From assembly GCA_950295325.1 (NCBI GenBank), contig OX485803.1, forward strand, positions 10,044,001 to 10,108,000: a stretch of 64,000 bases of DNA, read 5' to 3'. This DNA is from Polytrichum commune. Lineage: Eukaryota; Streptophyta; Polytrichopsida; Polytrichales; Polytrichaceae. The notes beneath the pieces are model-generated. The model was not told the DNA's origin, did not search any database, and saw only the letters and a program-made list of their open reading frames with translations. Below, in pieces: positions 35,041 to 54,179 of this stretch. Numbering within the stretch: position 1 is the stretch's first letter; every line of letters begins with the position of its first letter. Made by a program: the position numbers and the translations under genes.

Positions 35041-35944
35041 CACTTGCTCATCGGTCACTTCCCTCGGGCCTCTCTCCCATTCTCTCCTCTTAATATCTAT
35101 TCCTTCCTGAGCATTGCACTCCAACAGCAATCTGTAAATATAGCATTGCATCCAACCCCGGACAAGCCTCCTCTTATTTCTTGAGTCTGAAGCTTCCCGT
35201 AGTGTGTTTCCACGCTGCATTTGGTGCGGAACCGTGTCTGGGGACTCCATATTTGTTGCAAGCAACTTAGCTTCCCATTGAAGCCTGCTCGGAGGGAGTT
35301 GACAGAGTTAAGAAGAGTTGCGAGCGATTACATAATACAGTGTCTCTTCTCTTCTCTTCTTTGAGAGTGCAGCGTACAGAATTTGAGGTTTTCTGTTGAG
35401 GAGGGGCAGGTTCATTGCAATACAGAGTTGGAAGGAGGAGGGAGTATCATCTTGTTGAGAAATTGGTTCTTCCTCGATTGATAGGATTTTTGCGGACAGA
35501 CATAAAGGGAGTGGCGTGCACGAACAGGTTATGGTGACGCAAGGAGAAAAGCTAGCAATATAAGAAAGAGGGGCGAGTACGTTGGTGTGTCGGGGCAGAA
35601 AAAGGTTCCGGAGCAGCAGGTTGTGAGAAAAGAAAAAAGTGAAAAGAACAGAAAAACAAATTGTGGGAGTGGAGCCTTAGTGTGTAAGGAGGAGTTGTTC
35701 CAAGTTTTCGGAGGCACAGGGGTGATTGATTTGATTGACTGAAGAAAGTAATTCGGTTGGGTTTTGTTTGTGTCAATGGACGTGGCTACTACGTCGGAGG
35801 CTGACAATACTCTATAGCATTGGCTGAACACGGTGTTGGTGAGCAGAGGAGTTTTTGAGTGAGGAGTTTGGGAGTATAACAGAAGAGTTCCCGAGAGTTA
35901 CAGGAAGTTCTAGAGGGTGAGAGAGAGAGAGAGAGAGAAAAAAG
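35041..35944 (+). promoter_or_regulatory. Probable 5' leader of the DUF506 gene with two short uORFs and GA tract
   Basis: If transcription starts near 35040 the leader is about 900 nt. It holds two short uORFs opening with ATG: 35531-35563 (MVTQGEKLAI) and 35776-35817 (MDVATTSEADNTL). A GA tract at 35919-35938 ends six bases before the start codon. GA tracts in plant leaders are known targets of BBR/BPC factors. A spliced 5' UTR intron is possible and would remove one or both uORFs. Confidence 0.4.
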
Positions 35945-37327
35945 ATGCCTGGACTATTAACAATGAGACCGGTAGGGACGGCCTCGAAGGCGACTCGCAG
36001 CTCTCGAGGATTAGCGAGGCCGAAGCCAGAGAAGGCGACATGGGAGGAGAAAGGTCCTGCACCTCCAACGACGCTTGTGCGAGTGCCGTCGTTGACCACG
36101 TCCGGATTCACATCCTCACAGCTGCAAACCAACGGGCCAGCAGGAGGAGCGAGAAGCAAGAAGGACTCGGTGACGGAGAACATTAAAATCAAACTCCTCG
36201 GCACAACCGGAGGAGCTGGTCAGCTGGACAAATCAGGCAACGAGTACAGCAGCAGCGGAAGCGAGCACGAGCCGAGCTCCATCTGCTTAGCAGCCATGGT
36301 GGACGAGTTCATGGAGCACGAGACAACAGAGAATAGCAACAATTTCGGACGCTCTCGCGGCAACGACGATGATGACGACGACTCGAAGTCGTCTCTTGGC
36401 GGAGAGCTTTCCGAGATTCTCCAAGGTCTGGTTCCTTGTGCTAATGCCACCGAGAGAATCTTGCTCAGCGAGGTTAGCAAAGCGCTTGCCAAGGAAGCTG
36501 GAGTTTCGAACTTTTTGAGACGTCAAGTGATGAAGCATCTTCGATCGGCAGGTTATAACGCTGCGATTTGTAAGTCGCGCTGGGACCACGCGGGTGGGTT
36601 TCCCGGAGGAGATTATGAGTACATCGATGTGGTGTTCGGAGGTGCAACTGGGAAGAGCGAGAGGATTGTTATTGACGTGGAATTCAAAGCCCAGTTCGAG
36701 ATTGCGCGACCTACCGCGAGGTATAATGCTGTTGTGCAAGTTTTACCCACCATCTTCGTGGGTAAGGCGGACCGGCTGCAGCAGATCGTGAACGTCATGT
36801 CGGATGCGGTGAAACTTTCGCTGAAGAAGCGTGGCATGCATTTGCCACCCTGGAGGAAGCCTGAGTACATTCGTGCGAAATGGTTCTCGTCTTACAGACG
36901 GACAACTAACGGTGTTTTACATGCCAAGGATGATGAGGACGATGATGAGGTTATGATTGACATCGCTAGGATTGCTGTGCGAGGAAATGGATGGGATGCG
37001 AGGTTCACAGATGAAATGGAAGTGGATTACGAGAGAGCTGAGGCCCGACAGGCTATGAAGCAGATGGAGAGTAATGTCATTGGCAACAGGGTCATGAAGA
37101 TTAGCAGTAAACGAGTTGAGCAGAATGTTGCAGCCTACAGCGCTGTTGAGAATAGCGACTGGCAGCCTCCGTCTTTGAAGGCGAGGACATTTCAGCGTCC
37201 CGGTCCGGCTGGTCTTGCGTCGATCTTGCGAGAAGCTGGTCTGACGGCATCATTCAAGACCAGCTTGACCCATCATCAAGAGCAAGCGCTTGGTGGTCGC
37301 AGCAGAGGCATGGCGATGGCGGTATAA
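35945..37327 (+). CDS. DUF506 / PDDEXK_6 family protein (460 aa)
   Basis: This plant-specific family has a fold related to PD-(D/E)XK nucleases and mostly unknown roles; one Arabidopsis member, RXR1, was reported to repress root-hair elongation. The N-terminal 110 residues are basic, Ser/Pro-rich and probably disordered. An acidic D-run lies at 141-146. The conserved domain spans about 155-325: LRSAGYNAAICKSRWDH (199-215), YEYIDVVF (224-231), RIVIDVEFKAQFEIARPT (240-257), LPTIFVGKADRLQQIV (267-282), SLKKRGMHLPPWRKPEYIRAKW (292-313). D228, D244, E246 and K248 fall where a PD..ExK site would lie. A C-terminal WQPPSLKAR..GLASILREAG motif (406-432) is also typical. The frame is complete in one exon. 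The start is the first in-frame ATG after the GA tract, with A at -3. No close host neighbour exists. Confidence 0.93.
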   Translation: MPGLLTMRPVGTASKATRSSRGLARPKPEKATWEEKGPAPPTTLVRVPSLTTSGFTSSQLQTNGPAGGARSKKDSVTENIKIKLLGTTGGAGQLDKSGNEYSSSGSEHEPSSICLAAMVDEFMEHETTENSNNFGRSRGNDDDDDDSKSSLGGELSEILQGLVPCANATERILLSEVSKALAKEAGVSNFLRRQVMKHLRSAGYNAAICKSRWDHAGGFPGGDYEYIDVVFGGATGKSERIVIDVEFKAQFEIARPTARYNAVVQVLPTIFVGKADRLQQIVNVMSDAVKLSLKKRGMHLPPWRKPEYIRAKWFSSYRRTTNGVLHAKDDEDDDEVMIDIARIAVRGNGWDARFTDEMEVDYERAEARQAMKQMESNVIGNRVMKISSKRVEQNVAAYSAVENSDWQPPSLKARTFQRPGPAGLASILREAGLTASFKTSLTHHQEQALGGRSRGMAMAV

Positions 37328-48490: not shown

Positions 48491-48930
48491 GAACTGAGAG
48501 ATAAATAAAAATCAAAATAAATCAAAAAACCATCAAATGTTGGGGAGTGATGAGCATTGGATGATGACGTCTTGCTTAATGCTGCCTGCCTGCCTAGATG
48601 TGTAAGAAATTTGGGAGCCAGATTAATTTGGTGCCGTTTCGACTGTTGTGGTACTTTAATTGCAGGGAGTAATTAGTCGAGTACATTACATTACATTCGG
48701 ATCGGATCGGAGTGCAGTGTGAACGAACATGCGTGCGGGCTCATTCGAACCCACCCACCCACCTTATTACTTAATCTTTCTTAGCTAGCTAGCTAGGCTG
48801 AGTGTAAGAGTCTAAACCCAGTAGAACAGTATAGTACTTTGCCTAGCTTAGCTATTTCCACAAGGTTTTCCCCAAGATTTGGGGCCCAACAAAATCTCCC
48901 AACTCCATTGTGACTAGGAAGCAGATCTAA

Positions 48931-48962
48931 GAGCATCCGCACCCATGCTCACTATACCCGGC
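48931..48962 (+). repeat. Left terminal inverted repeat of the Harbinger element
   Basis: It pairs with 53727-53758 at 31 of 32 positions; the mismatch is at position 21 of the repeat. Confidence 0.95.
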
Positions 48963-49013
48963 TCTTCAAAGGGCCAGTAGAGGGCTCCACAAGGCTCTAG
49001 GGCCTCGCCAAAT

Positions 49014-49412
49014 ATGGCGACCCCCACCCTTCCTCCAGACCTCTCCAGAGGCCCTCGCGCTGCTTCCCGGCGCTCCCTCCCTCTCGCTGCCTCCCGCCGC
49101 TGGTCCGTCACTCCCCCGCCTGCCTGCCTGCCTCCCGCGCTGCCTGCCTCCCGGCGCTGCTCCGTCACTCCCCCGCTTGCCTGCCTGCCTCCCGGCGCGG
49201 CTTTGTCACTCCTCCCGCAGATAAAACAAATAAAGGTTGGACGAGCCACATCAGAGGCTGCGAGCAAACATAGATTTTTCGACTGTCACAGACCACCACA
49301 GACTGCCTGCAAACAGAGCTGCGAGGCTTGTTTTCTGCTCTTGAAGGAGGTTTAGGGTTGTTTGAGTTAATAGAGTTCCTCGGTTTGACATGTGTATTTT
49401 GTAGTTAATCTT
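49014..49412 (+). promoter_or_regulatory. GC-rich 5' region and probable leader/intron of the transposase gene
   Basis: GCCTGCCTGCCTCCCG-type units repeat at 49120-49200, giving a Pro/Ala/Ser-rich frame (49014-49355) that is better read as leader sequence. Just before the transposase start, GTGTATTTTGTAG|TTAATC looks like a 3' splice site, and a short ATG frame (49390) ends at that TAG. A 5' intron is therefore likely; its donor was not fixed. Confidence 0.4.
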
Positions 49413-50708
49413 ATGGATCAATGGCGGGAACGCCTTCTTGCGACTCGGGAGCTTATTTTGGAGGACGATGAGGAAGATGATTTCAATGTTAATTGGATTA
49501 TTGGATTAGGGTTGAGTGCACCGCGTGGTCACATGCCAAGCATTGTCCATGGATCACGTCCAGGGAAATCGCCCAACATTGACAGGCATAGACACGAGAT
49601 GCATGCCCGCATGATGTCTGATTATTTTGCAGATGAACCTACGTATGGCCCAAATTTTTTCCGCCGTCGATACCGTATGCGGAGGTCATTATTTTTGACC
49701 ATATTGGATAGGGTTTGTGCTAGAGACGATTACTTTGTTCAGAAACAAGATGCATGTGGTTTTTTGGGGTTGTCCCCGCATCAGAAGATCACCTCCGCTT
49801 TGAGGATGTTGTGTTACGGTTTGTGTGCCGATGCTACAGACGAATATTGCAGGACTAGTGAAACCACCGCGATGACATCTATGAAGCGAATTTGCATTGC
49901 AATTAGGTGTGAGTTTGAGGCATACCATATGAGACAACCTACTCGTGCCGATTTTGAAAAACAGTTGGCAATTAATGCTGATCGTGGATTTCCAGGCATG
50001 TTTGCCTCACTTGATTGTATGCATTACGAGTGGAAGAATTGCCCGGTTGCTTGGCAAGGGGACTTCGGTGACAAAGATGGGAAGAAGTCGATCATATTGG
50101 AGGCCGTGGCGGATGGTGGTTTGCACATATGGCATGCGTTCTTTGGGTTACCCGGTTCCAACAACGACTTGAACGTGTTGGATCGTTCACCGCTCATCCA
50201 CAACATGTTGACTAGCGAAGCTCGTGACATGCAATTCGAGGTTAACGGGTGTCAGTATGATCGATATTATCTTCTCACGGATGGTATATATCCCGAGTGG
50301 TCTTGCTTCGTGCAAAGCATCCATCAACCACAAGATGAGAAACGCAGCTATTTTGCGGAAAGACAAGAGGCCGTGCGCAAGGATGTTGAGAGATGTTTCG
50401 GGGTGTTGCAGGCCCGTTTTGCGATAATTCGCAACCCTTGCCGGCATTGGAGCATGGAAGTGATATCGAACATCATGTTCACGTGTTGTATCTTGCACAA
50501 TATGATAATTGATGACGAAGAAGGTGTTGAAGGACTAGATGATATTATTGGTGAGTTGCATGAGGGAAATGTCCCAATGCAAAGAGGTTTGTCCTTTGAT
50601 GAGTATATGGCAAGTACCGTGGACATTACCAATGCGGACACTCATTTTGGTCTCCGTGGTGATCTCATTGAGCACTTGTGGATGTTGAAAGGCACCAATT
50701 TGGCCTAA
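49413..50708 (+). CDS. PIF/Harbinger DDE transposase (431 aa)
   Basis: It cuts the element out and reinserts it at TWA targets. It belongs to the plant transposon protein / DDE_Tnp_4 group. An acidic N-terminus precedes the RRRYRMRRSLFLTIL segment (about 84-98), which is conserved before the catalytic core. The likely catalytic residues are D201 in MFASLDCMHYEWKNCP, D252 in LPGSNNDLNVLDRSPL and E326 in VRKDVERCFGVLQARF. YYLLTDGIYPEW (285-296) and CCILHNMIIDDE (358-369) are also typical. The whole core is present without stop or frameshift, and the length is normal for the family. The start is the ATG at 49413; upstream in-frame codons lack an ATG and look like the end of an intron. Its partner is the Myb-like gene on the other strand. 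Confidence 0.95.
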   Translation: MDQWRERLLATRELILEDDEEDDFNVNWIIGLGLSAPRGHMPSIVHGSRPGKSPNIDRHRHEMHARMMSDYFADEPTYGPNFFRRRYRMRRSLFLTILDRVCARDDYFVQKQDACGFLGLSPHQKITSALRMLCYGLCADATDEYCRTSETTAMTSMKRICIAIRCEFEAYHMRQPTRADFEKQLAINADRGFPGMFASLDCMHYEWKNCPVAWQGDFGDKDGKKSIILEAVADGGLHIWHAFFGLPGSNNDLNVLDRSPLIHNMLTSEARDMQFEVNGCQYDRYYLLTDGIYPEWSCFVQSIHQPQDEKRSYFAERQEAVRKDVERCFGVLQARFAIIRNPCRHWSMEVISNIMFTCCILHNMIIDDEEGVEGLDDIIGELHEGNVPMQRGLSFDEYMASTVDITNADTHFGLRGDLIEHLWMLKGTNLA

Positions 50709-50831
50709 TATATAAAGGGGTGACTAGTATCCATAAGTTTGGCCATATCAATTGCAATACATGTGAGTTTCGGAGAAAGAATGTATGCTGAAATTTTTAA
50801 ATAATATGCAAATGTGTGACTAATATCACAT

Positions 50832-51077
50832 TTATTGGAAAAAACTATGTCCAGTCAATGCTAAACCAAGTCCAATGTCATCCTCGGCGCACATGTTTTG
50901 TGAATTGTCATGATCTACCATGACATCCCATGTGGTGGGCATCCCCGGTCCAACATGCTCAATGTCATCCCACTGACCACTATCACCATGGCTATCTACA
51001 TATCTACCGGGTGCAATCCCGCCATCTTCTCGGAATCGCCGACTACAAGGATCATGCTCTTCATTCGCATGTTGTGC
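50832..51077 (-). CDS. Possible last exon of the Myb-like gene (inferred by splicing)
   Basis: An open minus-strand frame, AQHANEEHDPCSRRFREDGG..., runs to a stop at 50832. It is preceded exactly at a codon boundary by a good 3' splice site (TTTTTGATTGCAG|GCA). In the Myb-like gene a phase-0 donor candidate, TCTGAG|GTGGAT, lies at 52087/52086. Joining the two would replace the last 25 residues with about 81 acidic ones. This is an inference; the unspliced stop at 52012 is equally legal. Confidence 0.35.
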   Translation of the reverse strand, partial: AQHANEEHDPCSRRFREDGGIAPGRYVDSHGDSGQWDDIEHVGPGMPTTWDVMVDHDNSQNMCAEDDIGLGLALTGHSFFQ

Positions 51078-51469
51078 CTGCAATCAAAAACAACAAAACA
51101 GGGCTTAGGCACATTCAAGGCTTAGACACACTCAAGCTCATACACATTCAAGCACGGGCGTAATGCCACATTCGACCACAAATTGTCCATAATTGAAACA
51201 TCCACACAGAATGCATGCAGAACAGAATCATCCACACACACAAACATGCCAATGCTCGGACTCAGCCTGCCCTGCAAATCACAGTCGGCAGCAATGCTGC
51301 ATTCCATCAACCAAACTCGTTGACTGTAGACCACACAGACTGTCTGCAGAACAAAAAATTACAAAAAAACCTACATTCACACTCAGCCCTCACAGATTGC
51401 CTGCAGATAACCGAGAACTAAATAACCCCCTAAACCCCTAAACCCAAAACCTACATTCACACTCAGCCT

Positions 51470-51820
51470 TCACAGACTGCTCTCTTTTGTGCCTGCAATT
51501 AAACCAGAGCCTGTACTGCCACATACAGGGCCTGCAGAATTTAAAATTTAAAAAAAAAAAAAAAAAAACCTACACTAACACTTATAGACCTTCCCCCTGT
51601 CAAAAAGAAGCATTCAGACTGCTCTCTTTTGTGCCTGCAATCAAATCAGAGCCTAAAAATCCACATACAGGGCCTGCAGAAAAAAAAAACAAAAAAAACC
51701 TTCCCTAAACCCTTACAGACCCTCCCCCTGTCAAAAAGAAGCATTCAGACTAATCTCTTTTGTGCCTGCAATCAAATCAGAGCCTAAAAATCCACATACA
51801 GGGCCTGCAGGAAAAAAAAA
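51470..51820 (-). repeat. Internal ~131 bp tandem repeat between the two Harbinger genes
   Basis: CTCTTTTGTGCCTGCAATYA then AA(C/T)CAGAGCCT..CCACATACAGGGCCTG occurs near 51483, 51623 and 51754; the last two are 131 bp apart and nearly identical. On the minus strand each carries TTGATTGCAG|GCACA, the same acceptor-like string as the candidate splice site at 51078. A-runs of 8-18 separate the units. Confidence 0.85.
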
Positions 51821-52011
51821 AAAAACCTACATTATCCCTCATAGACTGCCTGCAGATAACCGAGAACTAAATAACTCACACAGACTGCCTGCAGGAAATT
51901 TTAAAAAAAAAACAGTCACATTCAAAGTCGGCCACAGTCTGCCCTAGAAGAGAATTAGAATTCGGACAGGGTCACAGTCGGCTCACAGAAAGTGAATCCA
52001 GCATTCACATT

Positions 52012-53514
52012 TCAAATTTTATCAAGCAGGATCACAGGCTCACAGTCAAGCAAAGTGGCTGGTTTAGTACGAGAAATTGAATCCACCTCAGAATCGAGAT
52101 CGTCTTCCTCGTCGGATTCTTGCAAATCCCCAATTTCTCTATGACCCGGATGCTCGTAATTTGATCTCATAGAGTCGAATTCCACTCGTGCATCCCGCAA
52201 TTGCCTGAGTGTTTCCTCATCTTCTTGAGATCTCTTATCCGCTTCTTCTCGTTCGCGTGCCGCCTCGGACATTTCAAAAACCTCTCGCTCTTGTTGTTCA
52301 CGCAACTCAAATGCCGCGGATTCCGCCCTTCGACGTCGTAATTTGAGCAGCTCCTCCTCACGAAGCAAACGAATAAATTCTTGAGCCTCCGGCGTGGTAA
52401 CTTGGTTCATCGGTGCGGTGAAAAGGAGTAGCATGTTGTGGTACTCCAAACTTGCCGCCTTGCGAAGTGTTGCTTCCGCCATCTTCTCGGCGGCCTTGGC
52501 TTGAGTCAAAGCCGCTCTCTCGTGCACCTTGTCAGCACGTTGGGCATCTTTTGCTGCTTTTGTGCCTCCGGGCCTCTCTCTGAATGTCATGCTTGTAGTT
52601 GCCTCACCTGTAGTATCCACAGCACTCACACCATTTTGGGTGTCCATTTGGGAACCCGATTGCGACTCGTGGTCAGAAGAACCAGACACCCTCCTAGAGG
52701 GAGTTGTTTGACGCGATGGACTAACACCGTCAGCCCAACGCGGAAAATCTTTCACCAATTCCCAACAGTGTTCAAACATGAACTCAGTGTTCTTAGCAGT
52801 TTTAGTACGATACAAATCTTTAGCCATGCGAATAATGTCAGATTCTTTACTACCACTTTTGTTTAATCTTTTGATTTGATTATAGGCTCCGATGAATTTT
52901 CCCACATCGTGTTTAATCATGCCCCATTTTGATTCCAATGATCGCGCGCCCCTATGTCCACCTGGTCTACATTGATCATAATGCAAATAAATTCGTTCCC
53001 AGAAAGCATTACCCTTTTGTTGATTCCCGCAAATTGGGTCCTGAGAGATTGCGAGAACACTCCTAGTCAACTGGCGCTCTTCCTCAGGAACAAAATTCTT
53101 ACCTTTCGCAGGCCGCACAGACCCTCCCCCACGACCCCTACCTCGGCTTCGACCAAAATCAACAGAGGGTTGAGTATGCAGGGAGAATGCTGGGTCACTC
53201 ACCTGGGCTTGATGGCCTGCTCCAGTAGTCACATCCGGCACCGAGGCCGTCGGTGCTTCGTGTTCGCCGAAACCAGTTGAATGCTGCAAGTGAATCCCCG
53301 CATGCTGGCTGCGATCGAGCCCAGTTCGCCGAGATTGCAAACCATTCGCTTCACCCACTCGCGGCGACGGCCTCCCCCGCATCAAACCCTCAAATTCGAC
53401 GTCGTCGAATCCCCGCTCACCAACCCCGAAATCAGTTGCCGCAGGCGCTCCTCGCTGCAAGCCACCGCGTCCACGGCCTCGAAGCACCGAGTGCCCACGG
53501 CCACGTCCTGCCAT
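52012..53514 (-). CDS. Harbinger Myb/SANT-like protein (ORF1, 500 aa)
   Basis: In PIF/Harbinger elements this second protein binds the element ends and helps bring the transposase into the nucleus. The N-terminus is Gly/Arg-rich (RGRGHSVLRGRGRGG, residues 4-18) with a second RGRGRGGG block near 124-131. The Myb/SANT-like trihelix region is about 141-262: FVPEEERQLTRSVLAISQDP, GNAFWERIYLHYDQ, RSLESKWGMIKHDVGKFIGA, FMFEHCWELVKDFPRW. A charged helical region with coiled-coil character follows (about 319-440), then an acidic end (ESDEEDDLDSE). Starting at 53514 gives a good context (G at -3 and +4); the upstream extension has no ATG. The frame is intact. Convergent with the transposase. An alternative spliced C-terminus is possible (see 50832-51077). 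Confidence 0.9.
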   Translation of the reverse strand: MAGRGRGHSVLRGRGRGGLQRGAPAATDFGVGERGFDDVEFEGLMRGRPSPRVGEANGLQSRRTGLDRSQHAGIHLQHSTGFGEHEAPTASVPDVTTGAGHQAQVSDPAFSLHTQPSVDFGRSRGRGRGGGSVRPAKGKNFVPEEERQLTRSVLAISQDPICGNQQKGNAFWERIYLHYDQCRPGGHRGARSLESKWGMIKHDVGKFIGAYNQIKRLNKSGSKESDIIRMAKDLYRTKTAKNTEFMFEHCWELVKDFPRWADGVSPSRQTTPSRRVSGSSDHESQSGSQMDTQNGVSAVDTTGEATTSMTFRERPGGTKAAKDAQRADKVHERAALTQAKAAEKMAEATLRKAASLEYHNMLLLFTAPMNQVTTPEAQEFIRLLREEELLKLRRRRAESAAFELREQQEREVFEMSEAAREREEADKRSQEDEETLRQLRDARVEFDSMRSNYEHPGHREIGDLQESDEEDDLDSEVDSISRTKPATLLDCEPVILLDKI

Positions 53515-53726
53515 CCCGCCAAAAATTCTCCGAACAGCGGTGCACACAAAAAATTAGAACAAAATCTTCCCTAAATCACCCGGCTTTTGGGCGCGCGCAG
53601 AGAACTCGAAGACTCTGGAAAATGGCGCGACAGGGGAAGTTTTTCACGAGCCCGCTCTTGAAAGAGCCGTTGCCCGGGTTGCGGTGGGGTGGTCATTCCT
53701 ACCCGGGCCCGCCAAAAGCCATTGAG

Positions 53727-53758
53727 GCCGGGTATAGCGAGCATGGGTGCGGATGCTC
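53727..53758 (-). repeat. Right terminal inverted repeat of the Harbinger element
   Basis: The inverted copy of 48931-48962; it ends GCGGATGCTC and is followed by the TAA duplication. Confidence 0.95.
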
Positions 53759-53784
53759 TAAGTAGCTAGCTAGGCCACACTTAA

Positions 53785-54179
53785 GAGCATCCTCAGTCGG
53801 TCTAGGTAAAGCTCACTGCAAACCAAGACCTATCTTGCTTAAAATTGCTCAAAATTTAGAGGGAGTGCACCAAATCTTGCTTAAAAATGGACAGATCCTC
53901 CCACACTCCCTCTAAATGTCAAAAATTTGGAGGGAGTGTGGGAGGATCTTTCCATTTTAAAGCAAGATTTGGTGCACTCCCTCTAAATTTTGAAAATGTG
54001 GTGTTTTCAATGAGGGATTTCACCTACGTCAAATTTTTACAATTCTTTTTTCTTGAGAAATATCTCACGTTTATTTAGGTGTGCTTCTAATGATGGTAAT
54101 TTCAGTTTCTAATTTTAGGTCAGTCAAAAGATAGGTTTTGGTTTGCAGTGAGCTTTACCTAGACCGACTGAGGATGCTC
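53785..54179. mobile_element. Harbinger-type foldback MITE next to the autonomous element
   Basis: The ends GAGCATCCTCAGTCGGTCTA continue as inverted repeats of about 50 bp with one mismatch (through GGTAAAGCTCACTGCAAACC). TAA flanks both sides (53782-53784 and 54180-54182). A second, inner inverted pair (AGAGGGAGTGCACCAAATCT, CTTCCCACACTCCCTCTAAA-type tracts) makes about two thirds of the 395 bp self-complementary. It shares the first eight bases, GAGCATCC, and the TAA preference with the Harbinger element 26 bp to its left. Confidence 0.93.

Follow-up and report, generated by a model that had tools for sequence, protein, structure and literature searches.

Whether a PIF/Harbinger transposon that looks complete is intact, and whether it mobilizes the miniature inverted-repeat transposable elements (MITEs) around it, are the questions raised by a 64,000-nucleotide (nt) stretch of Polytrichum commune DNA (hereafter referred to as the window; assembly GCA_950295325.1, contig OX485803.1, forward-strand positions 10,044,001–10,108,000). 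A first-pass annotation described an apparently intact autonomous element in this window and proposed it as a source of protein for the surrounding MITEs. Here we report, from the window and from genome-wide searches of the host assembly (407.8 megabases, 64 contigs), that the element is very probably a full-length copy from a PIF/Harbinger family of cut-and-paste transposons that was amplified recently. The sequence features suggest a family of known kind with recent activity, in which the competence of the window copy itself is putative.

The element spans window positions 48931–53758 (4828 base pairs (bp)), exactly the boundaries given at first pass, and the 32-bp ends with one mismatch and the intact TAA duplication described there are both present (Table 1). 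A 17-base pattern (TWA, in which W is A or T, followed by 14 bp of the end, with up to three mismatches) matched the window four times, as compared with 0.22 matches expected from shuffled sequences; two of the four matches are the exact element ends, and the other two are the ends of an adjacent MITE. The assignment to PIF/Harbinger, also made at first pass, is supported by the terminal inverted repeats with a 3-bp TWA duplication, the domains of a DDE transposase, PF04827 and PF13359, both of which score above the cut-off, and a second gene, ORF1, which carries PF14303. The element end, GAGCATCCG, lacks the G(N)5GTT motif applied to most PIF-like elements in an earlier study (PMC2213677). 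In a literature search with fragments of the end sequence, the 20 papers listed of 348 had unrelated titles.

Table 1. Features of the PIF/Harbinger element and its flanks, in window coordinates.
Feature	Position	Strand	Remark
Target-site duplication TAA, left	48928..48930	no strand	Sequence flank
Terminal inverted repeat, left, 32 bp	48931..48962	+	31/32 match with right end; mismatch at position 21
GC-rich tandem repeat upstream of transposase	49057..49218	no strand	Copies differ in length
Transposase coding sequence, 431 residues plus stop, one open frame	49413..50708	+	PF04827, E = 6e-85; PF13359, E = 4e-13
Transposase codon 160, Ile in window copy	49890..49892	+	Phe or Trp in the other 21 of 21 compared
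D201, first D of the DDE triad	50013..50015	+	Invariant in 7 aligned sequences
D290, second D	50280..50282	+	Invariant in 7 aligned sequences
E326	50388..50390	+	Invariant in 7 aligned sequences
ORF1 exon 2 (predicted), 81 residues plus stop	50832..51077	-	Acceptor and frame conserved in relatives
ORF1 intron (predicted), 1009 nt, GT..AG	51078..52086	-	Holds a 131-bp tandem repeat at 51551-51825
ORF1 exon 1, 476 residues	52087..53514	-	PF14303 (NAM-associated), 3e-8; open in 7 of the 8 youngest copies
Conserved ORF1 region, residues 138-215, probable Myb/trihelix-like DNA-binding part	52870..53103	-	No Pfam detection
Terminal inverted repeat, right, 32 bp	53727..53758	-	Paired with left end
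Target-site duplication TAA, right	53759..53761	no strand	Sequence flank

At least eight full-length copies, including the window copy, are 98–100% identical and lie on six of the seven large contigs; the copy search scored the best 40 of 141 candidates, and its counts are therefore lower bounds. They are accompanied by four somewhat older copies (L009–L012), one recombinant (L013) and older relatives. A protein search that scored the best 97 of 820 candidates contained, among the 98 matches listed, at least nine rows at 99–100% identity without a stop. The first-pass annotation had named several copies more than 98% identical at different TAA sites as the support to look for, and several such copies were indeed found at different TAA/TTA sites; the contrary outcome that it named, a single old copy, is excluded by the near-identical copies. 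Segmental duplication or assembly copies could in principle produce such near-identity, and beyond the high similarity itself nothing speaks for them. The flanks differ in each copy, the copies are dispersed over six large contigs, and the flank-to-flank matches are repeats of 68–97% identity, the 97% match covering 29 bp and the longest covering 629 columns at 75%. We reject this explanation as barely credible.

Both ends were identified in 22 of the loci L001–L028, and the 3-bp flanks are identical in 21 of these 22, reading TAA/TTA in 18, TCA in one and TGA in two. L021, L023, L024 and L026 fall outside this count, as one end was absent from the fetched stretch; L027 and L028 belong to another family, and their ends were not sought. 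In a study of an mPing reporter, one of 46 insertions had a TCA target (PMC4561436), and the TCA and TGA duplications here are thus not new. Moreover, when the two flanks of L002, of L009 and of L017 are joined, the junction can be aligned with related, element-free sequence. The triplet is held once in four of five such matches, namely L002 with L022 (TTA), L009 with L007 (TAA), L017 with L023 (TAA) and L017 with one window site (TAA). These matches are old repeats at 68–80% identity rather than the same site in another individual, and a match of the joined L017 flanks within their own locus was left out. The related empty sites support the element boundaries.

Over 4230 compared sites, without tandem-repeat stretches and gapped columns, 72 of the differences among the eight youngest copies are singletons and 2 are shared, a star-like pattern that indicates a recent burst. 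With four singletons, and on the assumption that singletons arose after insertion, the window copy would be ~73 or 135 thousand years old at 1.3e-8 or 7e-9 substitutions per site per year, respectively; all eight copies and both rates give a range of 55 to 709 thousand years. Of 13 close copies, 10 have an open transposase, 9 an open ORF1 exon 1 and 8 both genes open, the last group comprising seven of the eight youngest copies and L013. L004 has a stop in ORF1, and the L013 transposase has a 15-nt in-frame deletion.

Two loci groups record further copy history. L013 (G000:C5:3404049-3408778) is a recombinant with an intact TAA duplication, in which the left 450–600 bp resemble the older subfamily and the remainder is mostly 97–99% like the young subfamily (93% in one sampled intron block). 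A stop at transposase codon 240 is common to L009, L010 and L011, even though L010 is in other respects grouped with L012. The stop may have arisen by recurrent mutation or been passed on by exchange between copies, or a broken copy may have spread in trans.

Both genes seem to be under purifying selection. The ratios of nonsynonymous to synonymous substitution rates (dN/dS) between the window copy and older copies were computed for stop-free copies only, which biases them towards low values, and are 0.15 (L012), 0.41 (L013), 0.13 (L014), 0.09 (L018) and 0.15 (L022) for the transposase and 0.39 (L009), 0.41 (L013), 0.43 (L014), 0.46 (L015) and 0.25 (L018) for ORF1 exon 1. Two more distant transposase pairs are saturated, and the ratios between young copies are noisy (0 to 1.0). 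In the transposase, the DDE residues reported at first pass are present as D201, D290 and E326, which, from knowledge of the superfamily, we take to be the catalytic triad. A structure prediction from the single transposase sequence reached a predicted local distance difference test score (pLDDT) of 33, and a profile search of solved structures with the transposase returned no match.

The annotation of two full-length open genes holds for the transposase but not for ORF1, which is better described as two exons than as one open frame. Its stop-to-stop frame of 513 residues runs into the intron, and from conservation we infer a spliced product of 476 + 81 = 557 residues. The donor (GAG/GTG at 52087/52086) is GT in each of the 21 other loci in which it could be located, and the acceptor (CAG at 51078/51077) is AG in 17 of 20 other loci, with AC or AT in L017, L020 and L021. 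PF14303 matches all eight ORF1 sequences. A Myb-like character of the conserved ORF1 region, as claimed at first pass, is plausible: the region is strongly conserved and is predicted to be helical at low confidence (pLDDT 52, single-sequence model). A Foldseek search with this predicted piece found no match in the PDB at E ≤ 0.001, and a profile search of solved structures with ORF1 gave one match, at E = 0.6.

Several observations weigh against the reading of the element as a full-length copy from a recently amplified family. First, L007, a young copy with open genes, has mismatched flanks (TAA/TGA), most simply explained by a later point mutation. Second, the match of L017 to a second window site reads CAA, without a duplicated triplet; the matches of L002 to its own locus (CTG) and of L025 to the window (GCA) also lack the triplet and are thus of no help for the boundaries. 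Third, none of the eight ORF1 sequences had a Pfam Myb model among its listed matches at E ≤ 10, in a search whose filters drop most matches above ~0.1. Fourth, Ile160 occurs in the window copy alone, among 22 transposases down to ~50% identity. Finally, C>T or G>A changes account for 51 of the 72 singletons, a bias that is expected from methylated cytosines and so fits methylation and silencing.

The last two points, a unique Ile160 and a deamination-like bias in the singletons, would also be expected if the family burst was real but the window copy is dead, owing to Ile160 or to silencing, and moved, if at all, by the proteins of sister copies. This explanation, which is compatible with recent amplification of the family, is a serious contender, although we consider it somewhat less probable than its opposite. 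The replacement of Phe by Ile is mild and at a position that is not part of the catalytic triad, the two reading frames are open, and one to three unique residues also occur in six of the eight other close copies in the transposase alignment. Nevertheless, as Ile160 is unique to the window copy, both the competence and the autonomy of that copy are putative. The description 'apparently intact' therefore stands for the reading frames, whereas the function is only putative. Recent amplification of a full-length PIF/Harbinger family remains our preferred reading.

The element has a MITE for a neighbour. This 395-bp MITE (window 53785-54179) has TAA flanks and 53-bp arms that are 98% complementary, and lies 23 bp to the right of the element's TAA flank. 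It begins with the same eight bases as the element, and 11 of its first 16 bases agree with the element end. A genome-wide pattern search (TWA followed by 20 bp of the end, with up to three mismatches) found 72 sites, and a reversed control found none. Of the 49 sites with up to two mismatches, 48 lie by their coordinates at 26 known family loci, and the 49th (C4:40081659) probably represents the far end of L024; no MITE-sized element is among these 49 sites. Searches of the genome with the 120-bp ends, which skip very common words, gave 21 and 29 matches, all of them scored and each placed by eye at a known locus, and no new members. The only deleted derivatives of the family that were seen are two larger ones, L019 (2148 bp) and L025 (1447 bp), both internally deleted.

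The 23 sites with three mismatches include 14 with GAGCATCACCACCCATCCTC or a variant that differs by one base. Three of these loci were fetched (L036–L038); two are clean MITEs, 384 and 388 bp long, and the third is rearranged. They define a family of ~388-bp MITEs with the end GAGCATCACCACCCATCCTC and TAA/TTA flanks, in which two copies (L037 and L038) are 97% identical. A second search found 104 ends of this type; among the 100 listed, at least 35 pairs are spaced at 350–409 bp, and 30 ends lack a counterpart. This is the MITE family nearest to the element, its end agreeing at 17 of 20 bases with both element ends equally, as these are alike over those 20 bp. A decayed 6061-bp PIF/Harbinger relative, L040 (G000:C7:9730930-9736990), has TTA flanks and a transposase 56% identical to that of the window copy. 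One of its ends agrees with the 388-bp MITE at 18 of 20 bases, but the other end agrees at only 14 of 20 by eye; L040 and the MITE also have another stretch of 28 bp in common, at 89%. L040, which fits at one end only, is thus no more than a candidate partner of this MITE.

The proposal that the element supplies protein to the surrounding MITEs thus found no support, given the 11 of 16 end bases of the adjacent MITE and the lack of a MITE-sized element within two mismatches. MITEs with common ends and subterminal sequence, the hallmark of a helper of Tourist-like MITEs, were not found for it. We regard a helper role, for local MITEs or genome-wide, as improbable. The eight shared initial bases of the adjacent MITE, the 17 of 20 agreement of the ~388-bp family and the existence of L019 and L025 fit such a role, as does the finding that the Ping and Pong proteins, though differing from each other, act on mPing (PMC2836001). 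By contrast, the close genomic sites (one by inferred assignment) and the 120-bp matches belong to known members, and the 388-bp MITE is closer to L040 at one end, though not at the other. Alternatively, and tentatively, the element may belong to a recently amplified family with convergent genes, its own ends and full-length, two-gene copies but no MITEs of its own, beside a plentiful MITE with similar ends that possibly belongs to another lineage. We think this possible rather than probable, and its chances are slightly lowered by the fit of that other lineage (L040) at just one end.

In the mechanism that we envisage, the right-pointing DDE transposase and the left-pointing, spliced ORF1 product, presumably a DNA-binding protein, would act jointly on the 32-bp ends; the element would be excised and then inserted at TAA/TTA, or rarely TCA/TGA, with duplication of 3 bp. 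The need for both proteins, the cut-and-paste chemistry and the rise in copy number are what we infer by analogy with the superfamily. The rice PIF/Harbinger system Ping/Pong/mPing resembles the window family in its DDE transposase and ORF1, its 3-bp TAA/TTA duplication and the occurrence of TCA insertion. The Ping and Pong genes are arranged head-to-tail, whereas those of the window element converge. Unlike the case of mPing, no MITE with the window element's ends was found in the host genome, and the mPing end differs, starting with GGCCAGTCAC in a published primer (PMC4561436). PePIF1 of Phalaenopsis is ~5 kb long, with a two-exon ORF1, a 427-residue transposase, a TTA duplication and tens of putative autonomous copies, and is similar to the window element in all these respects, although its genes are described as head-to-tail (PMC6327408). 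MtPH of Medicago shares the two genes, in variable order, and internal tandem repeats that are variable from copy to copy, whereas G(N)5GTT is present at the MtPH ends selected in that study (PMC2213677). Convergent genes were found by tblastn at every one of L009–L024, L027 and L028; the more distant L040 has divergent genes. We do not claim the convergent order as unprecedented.

Other loci were noted alongside. Four transposase loci with identical scores (G000:C1:54700751, C3:9601454, C3:21196543 and C3:49745621) have 489-residue open frames that are 55% identical to the window transposase, and possibly represent a second recent burst. Elsewhere in the window, a 468-residue open frame (35921-37324) matches PF04720 PDDEXK_6 and is a probable host gene, and a three-gene tRNA cluster at 1115-1599 comprises two Gly(tcc) genes and one Asn(gtt) gene.

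Collectively, our findings describe an ordinary recently active family and leave the understanding of the superfamily unchanged. The family is a recent burst whose copies have approximate dates; related empty sites and a correction to the ORF1 model come with it, and its several near-identical PIF/Harbinger copies with both genes open are useful for studies of plant transposition and silencing. If the family indeed has no MITEs of its own, it would provide a natural contrast for what makes a helper spawn MITEs.

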